A DNA stretch of 45,701 nt from Verrucomicrobiales bacterium (GTDB taxonomy: Bacteria > Verrucomicrobiota > Verrucomicrobiia > Limisphaerales > JAQGOV01): assembly GCA_028293425.1 (NCBI GenBank), contig JAQGOV010000105.1:1-45701 (forward strand), written 5' to 3'. Of this stretch, positions 40,968 to 45,700 are shown piece by piece (the stretch's first letter is position 1; every line of letters begins with the position of its first letter). The notes beneath the pieces are model-generated. The model saw nothing but the letters and a program-made list of their open reading frames with translations. It had not been told where the DNA came from and made no database searches. The position numbers and the translations under genes were made by a program.

Positions 40968-41012
40968 AGCTTAAAAGTTTTCCAGGCTGTGTCAATGCCT
41001 CCTCGGTTTCGT

Positions 41013-41032
41013 CATTCTGGTTTCGTCATTAA
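41013..41032 (+). repeat. Left 20-bp direct repeat flanking the toxin-antitoxin-like cassette
   Basis: CATTCTGGTTTCGTCATTAA is identical to the copy at 41918-41937. A second partial copy, GGTTTCGTCATT, precedes it in tandem at 41005. The core TTTCGTCATT is also related to the heptamer array at the window end. Confidence 0.85.
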
Positions 41033-41036
41033 TAAA

Positions 41037-41417
41037 CTACGCCGCCCGCTTCAGCAGGTAATTGAGCGAGATTTCTTTATCGTATAATGCACGGATCAGG
41101 AGGTTGATGCTCCGACTCGGCCGCTGTTTGCCAGTTTCCCAGCGCGTCCAGCTCTTCTCGCCCACTTGAAAAAGCTCCCCCATTTCCTTTTGGCTATATC
41201 CGTGGCGCTCGCGCAGTTCTTTGAGTTGGGCTGGTAAGAGAAGCCCCATACAGCGAGCTTTGGTGTTATCAATAATATCGTGAGCCTCTGCTGTTAGCAG
41301 CCACTCTTTAAGTTCCTCATCCCACTCAAGTGGGATCGTAACCATTACTCGCTCCGCCACTCCCGTGCCTTCGAGGTTTGGAATCAACACTTCAAATTCT
41401 TCGTTTTTAGTCTTCAT
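41037..41417 (-). CDS. Antitoxin-like HTH protein (MqsA/YgiT-type C-terminal domain)
   Basis: A 126-residue protein whose C-terminal half is an HTH of the YgiT/MqsA type: 'LKELRERHGYSQKEMGELFQVGEKSWTRWETGKQRPSRSINLLIRAL'. The 'GEKSWTRWE.G...PSRS' stretch is diagnostic. The N-terminal half is short ('IPLEWDEELKEWLLTAEAHDII') and lacks the zinc-binding CxxC pairs of full MqsA. It lies 16 bp after a 117-residue gene with its own start, an operon like many type II toxin-antitoxin pairs with the toxin first. The ATG at 41417 is chosen because the upstream extension of the track ORF overlaps the partner gene. DNA binding to the palindrome at 41836 is inferred. Confidence 0.8.
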   Translation of the reverse strand: MKTKNEEFEVLIPNLEGTGVAERVMVTIPLEWDEELKEWLLTAEAHDIIDNTKARCMGLLLPAQLKELRERHGYSQKEMGELFQVGEKSWTRWETGKQRPSRSINLLIRALYDKEISLNYLLKRAA

Positions 41418-41433
41418 AAAACGTGCCTGTTGG

Positions 41434-41787
41434 TCATTCACAGGAAAGATTGGTGAACTGAGCCAGGTGTGCAGAGAATACAACGATACGCTTTCGATCA
41501 TTTCGCAACAGAATTTTCCCGTAGAATCGCCTGTTCTGGAATGGAAATAGAAATTCGTATGTCTCTCCTGGCGGATTATCCAGGTCGATCGGGCAGCCCG
41601 TTGCAGCGGAGGCAGACAGAAAATCTCTAATCGCTTCATACACCTCATATTTCCAAGCGAATCCAGACCCAGCTTTGTACCGATTCTCCGCATCAATGGT
41701 CCAACGAATGAGAGTTCCGGTCCCCTCAGTGGCCAGAATGGCGCACACCGTCTGCCTCCACATTTCTGGTATCTCGATTTGTGCCAT
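41434..41787 (-). CDS. Unrecognised small protein, putative toxin partner
   Basis: A 117-residue protein with no family I can name with certainty. The N-terminal half is helical ('WRQTVCAILATEG', 'YEVYEAIRDFLSAS'). The C-terminal half is a beta hairpin series 'GETYEFLFPFQNRRFYGKILLRNDRKRIVVFSAHLAQ', whose 'F.GR..YGKI.L...G..IVVFSAH' style recalls small RelE/MqsR-like RNase toxins. It is the first gene before an HTH antitoxin-like gene with a 16-bp gap, which is the main reason to call it a toxin. It carries no signal peptide. Alternative: a regulatory partner without toxicity. Confidence 0.6.
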   Translation of the reverse strand: MAQIEIPEMWRQTVCAILATEGTGTLIRWTIDAENRYKAGSGFAWKYEVYEAIRDFLSASAATGCPIDLDNPPGETYEFLFPFQNRRFYGKILLRNDRKRIVVFSAHLAQFTNLSCE

Positions 41788-41830
41788 TGCGTAAACCGCT
41801 TAGTCGCCCTTTGCTCCATTCACCTGAGAA

Positions 41831-41859
41831 ATCATGGTATCAATTGATACCTCCGTCAA
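41831..41859 (-). promoter_or_regulatory. Sigma70-like promoter of the toxin-antitoxin-like pair
   Basis: On the minus strand TTGACG (41854-41859) is followed by exactly 17 bp and then CATGAT (41831-41836), 43 bp before the first gene's ATG. The 16-bp perfect palindrome fills the spacer. -35 matches consensus at 5 of 6 and -10 at 4 of 6 positions. Confidence 0.65.
41836..41851. promoter_or_regulatory. Perfect 16-bp palindrome, likely operator
   Basis: GGTATCAATTGATACC is a perfect inverted repeat lying inside the spacer between the -35 and -10 elements of the cassette promoter. It is the obvious candidate binding site for the HTH antitoxin and would exclude RNA polymerase. A second, shorter pair, AGTCA-TAAGC-TGACT, sits just upstream at 41859-41873. 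Confidence 0.75.
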
Positions 41860-41917
41860 GTCATAAGCTGACTCAATTTGCCTCCCCTCGCGACTAATAA
41901 TCCGGCTCGTCATTCTC

Positions 41918-41937
41918 CATTCTGGTTTCGTCATTAA
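41918..41937 (+). repeat. Right 20-bp direct repeat flanking the toxin-antitoxin-like cassette
   Basis: CATTCTGGTTTCGTCATTAA matches the left copy at 41013-41032 in all 20 positions and in the same orientation. The two copies bracket the two genes and their promoter, 905 bp apart. Confidence 0.85.
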
Positions 41938-42009: not shown

Positions 42010-42468
42010 ATGAAAACTGTTGAAGGCTATTTTCTGATCCGGCCGGAAGACTTGCACTGGCGGCTTTCCAACATGATGAAGATTCCGAATGCGGATTTCC
42101 TGGAGCGAACCAAAAGCGAACTCCTGGGCGCACGGCTCTGGCGTATGCCGCCGCACAGTGCCAACACCCTGCATAAACACATTCGGGCCGAGGAATTTTA
42201 TTTTGTGCTGGAAGGCGTGGGCCGAATGCGGGTAGGCCAGGAAACTCTGACGGTGCCCAAGCATGGCGGCGTGCTGGTCGGACCCGGCGAGTTGCGCCAG
42301 GTGTTCAATGACACGGACGCCGACGTGCTATGGCTGATCGTCGGCGCGCCGGAAGAACCAGAATTGCTTCCGGGCGCACAGGCCGACAAGTCGGCCTTTT
42401 ATCCGGTGGATCCAAAAAAATTGCCCCCCGAGTTGGAGGGCAAGGAATGGCCGCCGAAACAGCCGTGA
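42010..42468 (+). CDS. Cupin-domain protein
   Basis: A 152-residue single-domain cupin. Motif 1 is 'LHKHIRAEEFYFVLEGVGRMRV' with its metal-binding His and Glu residues; motif 2 is 'GVLVGPGELRQVFNDTDAD', where the usual motif-2 His is not obvious, so the metal site may be incomplete. The tail 'YPVDPKKLPPELEGKEWPPKQP' is also found as a remnant at the window end. Cupins of this type include sugar isomerases and small-molecule-binding proteins; the ligand is unknown. It is divergent from the toxin-antitoxin-like pair. Confidence 0.83.
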   Translation: MKTVEGYFLIRPEDLHWRLSNMMKIPNADFLERTKSELLGARLWRMPPHSANTLHKHIRAEEFYFVLEGVGRMRVGQETLTVPKHGGVLVGPGELRQVFNDTDADVLWLIVGAPEEPELLPGAQADKSAFYPVDPKKLPPELEGKEWPPKQP

Positions 42469-45436: not shown

Positions 45437-45510
45437 AATACTTTCTGGACCCGAAGCAATTGCCGCCGGAGTTGGAGGTCAAGGAATGGCCGCCCAAGCA
45501 GCAGGGTTGA
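45437..45510 (+). pseudogene. Remnant of the 3' end of a second cupin gene
   Basis: The frame encodes 'DPKQLPPELEVKEWPPKQQG' and a stop. This matches the end of the cupin gene at 42010-42468 ('DPKKLPPELEGKEWPPKQP') over its last ~18 residues with few changes, and the DNA is also similar (GAGTTGGAGG.CAAGGAATGGCCGCC). Upstream the similarity stops, so only the tail of a paralogue remains. It has diverged, so the duplication is not very recent. Confidence 0.7.
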
Positions 45511-45581
45511 AGTTTGGATGACGAAATCAGGAATCTTTTTCCTTTTGCGAACTATGCCCCTTTTTGCGGCCAATCCCGCTT

Positions 45582-45700
45582 CGTCATTCGTCATTCGTCA
45601 TTCGTCATTCGTCATTCGTCATTCGTCATTCGTCATTCGTCATTCGTCATTCGTCATTCGTCATTCGTCATTCGTCATTCGTCATTCGTCATTCGTCATT
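45582..45700 (+). repeat. Heptanucleotide tandem array (CGTCATT)17
   Basis: Seventeen perfect, uninterrupted copies of the 7-base unit CGTCATT run to within one base of the window edge, 119 bp in all; the array may continue outside. Seven-base units in a non-coding setting can vary in number by slippage. The unit is the core of the 'TTTCGTCATT' direct repeats that bracket the toxin-antitoxin-like cassette 4 kb away. Confidence 0.97.

Follow-up and report, generated by a model that had tools for sequence, protein, structure and literature searches.

A probable chaperone-less offshoot of a toxin-antitoxin-chaperone family, with a predicted toxin so far unnamed, lies between interspersed repeats that are ordinary for its genome

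The systems closest to the locus described here are the toxin-antitoxin-chaperone (TAC) systems, among them HigBA1-Rv1957 of M. tuberculosis, those of the MqsRA type (PMC5105189) and CmdTAC (PMC11618068), and also MqsR/MqsA of E. coli. A C-terminal tail on the TAC antitoxin confers chaperone addiction, and removal of that tail frees the antitoxin (Bordes et al., PMC5105189); CmdA, a TAC antitoxin, terminates in LAA, a ClpXP signal (PMC11618068). The RelE/MqsR-type fold was represented by 13 Pfam families in a 2025 survey (PMC11980606).

The window, i.e. the whole 45,701-nt stretch of DNA that was analysed, contains a leftward operon in which a presumed promoter with an operator is followed by a candidate toxin gene and then an antitoxin gene. 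The features discussed below are:

41005-41032, minus strand: left interspersed repeat copy, register AATGACG AAACCAG AATGACG AAACC, a few bases past the antitoxin stop codon
41037-41417, minus strand: antitoxin gene, 126 aa, with an MqsA-like HTH; the protein lacks both CxxC zinc motifs and the C-terminal tail that relatives have
41434-41787, minus strand: candidate toxin gene for a 117-aa protein with a predicted RelE/MqsR-type fold (ORF, relatives, AlphaFold2, Foldseek)
41831-41859, minus strand: promoter-like site TTGACG-17-CATGAT from a consensus scan, with the operator in its spacer
41836-41851, no strand assigned: operator palindrome GGTATCAATTGATACC, perfect over 16 bp, conserved upstream of toxin genes
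41907-41937, minus strand: interspersed repeat copy on the right, upstream of the promoter-like site, register AATGACG AAACCAG AATGGAG AATGACG A
45580-45700, minus strand: perfect heptamer array of 17.3 copies (TTCGTCA on the plus strand), where the end of the contig is the end of the window

We put at about 0.82 the probability that the two genes form a type II toxin-antitoxin operon and that the repeats are separate elements interspersed in the spacers of the genome. An earlier note, made from the letters of the window, had proposed a toxin-antitoxin-like cassette, and this reading is supported by the conserved pair and operator, the MqsA-like antitoxin, the RelE/MqsR-like predicted fold of the toxin and the SecB-like gene present in relatives. 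As in type II systems, the adjacent co-directional genes are conserved as a pair, and at the sequence level an HTH antitoxin is accompanied by a palindromic operator in the promoter. The antitoxin would neutralise the toxin by binding it, probably via its N-terminal domain, and would repress the operon with its MqsA-like HTH on the palindrome; upon loss of the antitoxin, the toxin would be free to stop growth, its RelE/MqsR fold making mRNA cleavage as an endonuclease the most likely action. For this operon we infer toxicity, RNase activity, repression and, as discussed below, chaperone independence.

Homology of the toxin was observed in 15 other genomes in total: three of the 57 genomes of the same order and, by profile search of 388 genomes drawn from the phylum, 12 further ones. 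The gene order was likewise observed, an antitoxin gene directly following that of the toxin wherever the sequence is long enough; the exceptions to the pair are L111, where the antitoxin is degenerate, and G054, where the contig ends. Searches of Pfam, NCBIfam, PHROGs and PADLOC matched no toxin member to a relevant family, so that the earlier note's remark that the toxin belongs to no recognised family holds against these four libraries, and the sequence family appears to be unnamed in them. Matching no Pfam family, the toxin thus matches none of those assigned to the fold, and the MqsR family (PF15723) in particular gave no Pfam match in any of the 15 toxin members. AlphaFold2 gave a confident model (pLDDT 91.7, pTM 0.86), whose best Foldseek match to a solved structure is Thermus RelE (E 6.7e-3, probability 0.98); other matches are YoeB, HigB2 and MqsR, the last having the highest TM-score (0.59/0.69). 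As pointers to the BECR fold of the RelE/ParE superfamily these matches are weak across RelE, HigB2, YoeB and MqsR, with E from 7e-3 to 0.4 and probability up to 0.98, and comparison of the toxin with MqsR by sequence (hhalign) was not significant. Membership in the MqsR family was rejected on sequence (Pfam, hhalign), and MqsR was kept as a resemblance of fold. Going by the predicted structure, the protein most likely acts like a toxin of the RelE/MqsR type. Invariant residues of the toxin alignment include W10, K91, S105 and H107. A search of genome contigs with the toxin gave one antisense match, which was rejected as spurious, and a plasmid search gave no match.

TIGR03830 was matched by all 12 of 12 antitoxin members at E ≤ 0.001, with that of the window scoring 53.8, below the curated cut-off of 61.8; hhalign related the HTH to that of E. 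coli MqsA at 96.5%, and MqsA provided the best solved matches by both sequence and fold. No CxxC zinc motifs occur in the antitoxin alignment (A5). The window antitoxin stops where the tails of most relatives start, and several of the tailed antitoxins terminate in AA.

The conservation of the operator was observed across loci. Upstream of the toxin, GGTATCAATTGATACC is identical in 7 of 15 loci and within four mismatches in 14 of 15; windows drawn at random from these loci mostly come no closer than 6-8 mismatches. In 14 of 15 loci the operator follows a TTGAC or TTGC box at a distance of 3-4 nt, so that it fills the presumed promoter spacer; the promoter-like site of the window itself matches the consensus at 9 of 12 positions, which alone is not above chance. 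Exact GGTATCAATTGATACC occurs in four of the 388 genomes, once in each and every time next to a toxin gene of this family. For viral contigs the operator was rejected as a predictor of general use, few of its exact matches having toxin or antitoxin neighbours: among 80 listed viral contigs with the exact operator, this toxin is beside it in one and MqsA-type antitoxins in two, and toxin and antitoxin profiles found nothing on a further 40 operator-matching viral contigs. The collection is very large, and most of these matches are probably chance.

Among the relatives, a SecB-like gene follows the antitoxin in 10 genomes (G036, G123, G156, G419, G259, G096, G274, G128, G275 and G326) and in a viral contig, L241. 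Pfam SecB detects those of G036 and G275 above its curated cut-off and that of G326 below it, while the remaining ones, which are most of them, were assigned by position and a shared sequence motif rather than by profile score. This gene is absent after the antitoxin in the window and in G012, and alignment with relatives shows that the window antitoxin also lacks the C-terminal chaperone-addiction tail; the G012 antitoxin is 27 residues longer. The toxins of the window and G012 form a clade (support 96/95) among chaperone-bearing rows of the toxin tree. As judged from these sequences, the toxin family would most simply be a TAC system ancestrally, in which the SecB-like chaperone would protect the antitoxin through its C-terminal tail, and because the clade of the window and G012 lies among chaperone-bearing rows, the simplest reading is that the chaperone gene was lost in their ancestor. 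With a tailless antitoxin in a branch without the chaperone gene, the window pair would be expected to be chaperone-independent.

The set on contig L241 (IMGVR_UViG_3300025913_000960; 36.9 kb, classed viral) is complete, with the operator, the toxin gene, an antitoxin that has the tail, and the SecB-like gene.

Likenesses to TAC systems reside in the relatives of the window pair, with their order of toxin, antitoxin and SecB-like chaperone and their tailed antitoxins, many with an AA end; however, the toxin here lies outside the curated toxin families, and in the window both the chaperone gene and the tail are missing. The toxin-first order and the MqsA-like HTH of the antitoxin are shared with MqsR/MqsA of E. 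coli, and MqsR tops the TM-scores to the toxin model at the values given above, but there is no detectable sequence similarity between the toxins, the antitoxin here is without CxxC zinc motifs, and the operator presumably differs from that of E. coli MqsA. Two viral contigs, L122 (11061-12567) and L125 (1289-2824), carry MqsR-like/MqsA-Panacea pairs whose toxin genes are preceded, at about 36-61 bp, by exact GGTATCAATTGATACC. These differ from the window pair in that Pfam MqsR gives a weak match to the toxin of L122 and the antitoxins have a C-terminal Panacea domain. Since L122 and L125 carry the exact operator before MqsR-like toxins, they suggest that the operator is common to other MqsA-type systems.

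The window pair is probably an offshoot, without the chaperone, of a TAC family whose toxin is so far unnamed, and the repeats around it are ordinary for this genome. Somewhat better than even, in our estimate, are the chances of the broader proposal that the 117-aa protein founds a new sequence family of toxins with the RelE/MqsR fold, this family being the core of a patchily distributed TAC system, its occurrence on a viral contig included, with a near-invariant operator shared with MqsRA systems, and that the window presents a natural loss of chaperone dependence. A toxin family unnamed in the libraries searched would add to the TAC systems, which include some anti-phage defences. A natural experiment on the gain or loss of chaperone addiction would be at hand in related antitoxins that differ in having the chaperone tail, and the near-invariant operator offers a handle for finding further family members.

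The 20-mers that bracket the operon (41013-41032 and 41918-41937) are identical direct repeats at a distance of 905 bp, and they are the only matches in the window at ≤3 mismatches, where shuffles expect 0. What the earlier note had described is borne out, i.e. exact direct 20-mers at both borders of the cassette (window scan), further partial copies of the word beside each, which extend the words to the limits of the two features above, and two genes, a promoter-like site and a palindrome between them (ORFs, consensus scan), with no transposase or integrase found inside. The 20-mer is, however, not specific to the cassette. Pattern searches over all 750 contigs of the genome (7.43 Mb) gave 32 copies of its 18-mer core AATGACGAAACCAGAATG at ≤1 mismatch and 57 at ≤3, compared to 0 and 1 for the reversed core. 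The common register of the copies is AATGACG AAAYCAG AATGnnG AATGACG, often with an extra base before the last unit, and 38 of the 39 copies inspected are intergenic as judged with a rough gene caller. The 20-mer is part of a family of short repeats interspersed in intergenic spacers. The operon forms a gene block with a spacer on either side, and it is probably for that reason bracketed by ordinary spacer repeats of the genome; identical direct repeats can stand on both sides of a small operon without implying that they move it.

The 18-mer core is absent from nearly all relatives of the same order, several of which have the heptamer type (G017 with 56 overlapping matches). A search of the literature on the repeat word and on heptamer repeats found nothing relevant to it. 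The repeat here is reminiscent of the STRR heptanucleotide repeats of cyanobacteria, which likewise form arrays dispersed between genes and have a unit of 7 bp, but the heptamer and the organism are different, and many copies here are degenerate with an AAAYCAG unit inside. The assembly probably broke inside the 17.3-copy array at the contig end, and another array of the TTCGTCA heptamer lies on contig C365.

Pairs of copies ≤2.5 kb apart number six, compared to 1.0 expected under uniform scattering, and all six are co-oriented. Such an excess with shared orientation is beyond what plain random scattering explains, and local spread of the repeat would be the simplest account of it. Genes inside the other close pairs, which by eye resemble those for a flavin-binding protein, a macro-domain protein, a serine hydrolase and a sigma factor, have nothing obvious in common.

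This excess of direct pairs, together with the exact direct repeats at both borders, is what speaks for the cassette being a mobile unit, inserted or excisable by recombination between the repeats as the earlier note suggested, or for the repeats being sites of some cassette system not yet known. Against this, the repeats occur genome-wide in spacers irrespective of cassettes, other pairs enclose unrelated single genes, a close pair in G009 is inverted, and none of the 16 homologous toxin-antitoxin loci, the nearest (G012) included, has such repeats. Two of these results are among those that the earlier note had named as refuting its reading. The family also already spreads without them, e.g. 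on a viral contig. The genome-wide distribution and the homologous loci led us to reject the repeats as borders of a mobile cassette or as its recombining element, and we regard movement by them as very unlikely. Deletion between repeat copies could instead have truncated a complete TAC operon, removing the chaperone gene and the tail, as might be read from an antitoxin that ends at the start of its relatives' tails with its stop codon a few bases from the left repeat. But the sister locus in G012, without repeats, is likewise without the chaperone gene, so the loss most simply predates the repeats, which were probably not its cause. A separate loss of the tail could still fit, the G012 antitoxin being the longer by those 27 residues; as a whole we disfavour this account, to which we give slightly less credence again.

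That the pair might be a regulator with a small partner of some other function, and no toxin-antitoxin system at all, would agree with the lack of a match between the toxin and any curated toxin family. It is scarcely credible against the patchy distribution (13 of 388 genomes), the conserved pairing and operator, the SecB-like third gene of relatives, the occurrence on a viral contig and the toxin-like predicted fold.

Some smaller observations concern the repeats and the surroundings of the operon. (i) In G009, which belongs to another family of the order, two 18-mer copies (L066, G009:C95, 6187 and 7129) lie 942 bp apart, inverted, around a single gene. (ii) Repeat copies at L098 (G000:C542, 79, 3813 and 4030) and at L070, L091 and L102 have longer flanks in common, GGCAATGGCATCCGA before and GATTTAACGGG after, and are adjoined by arrays of other heptamers (GAATTAT, GAAGGAT); the long flanks and the neighbouring arrays of other words suggest a larger dispersed element. 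(iii) Good relatives exist for both neighbouring genes, that of the 77-aa protein and that of the cupin, and in a search for an empty site the gene order of the window was kept in none of the five regions fetched. (iv) Shortly before the heptamer array, at 45448-45510, lies a fragment that looks like the cupin gene's 3' end (gene at 42010-42468), with the letters LDPKQLPPELEVKEWPPKQ compared to VDPKKLPPELEGKEWPPKQ, and a further copy of the cupin gene, with one stop inside, is found on contig C258.
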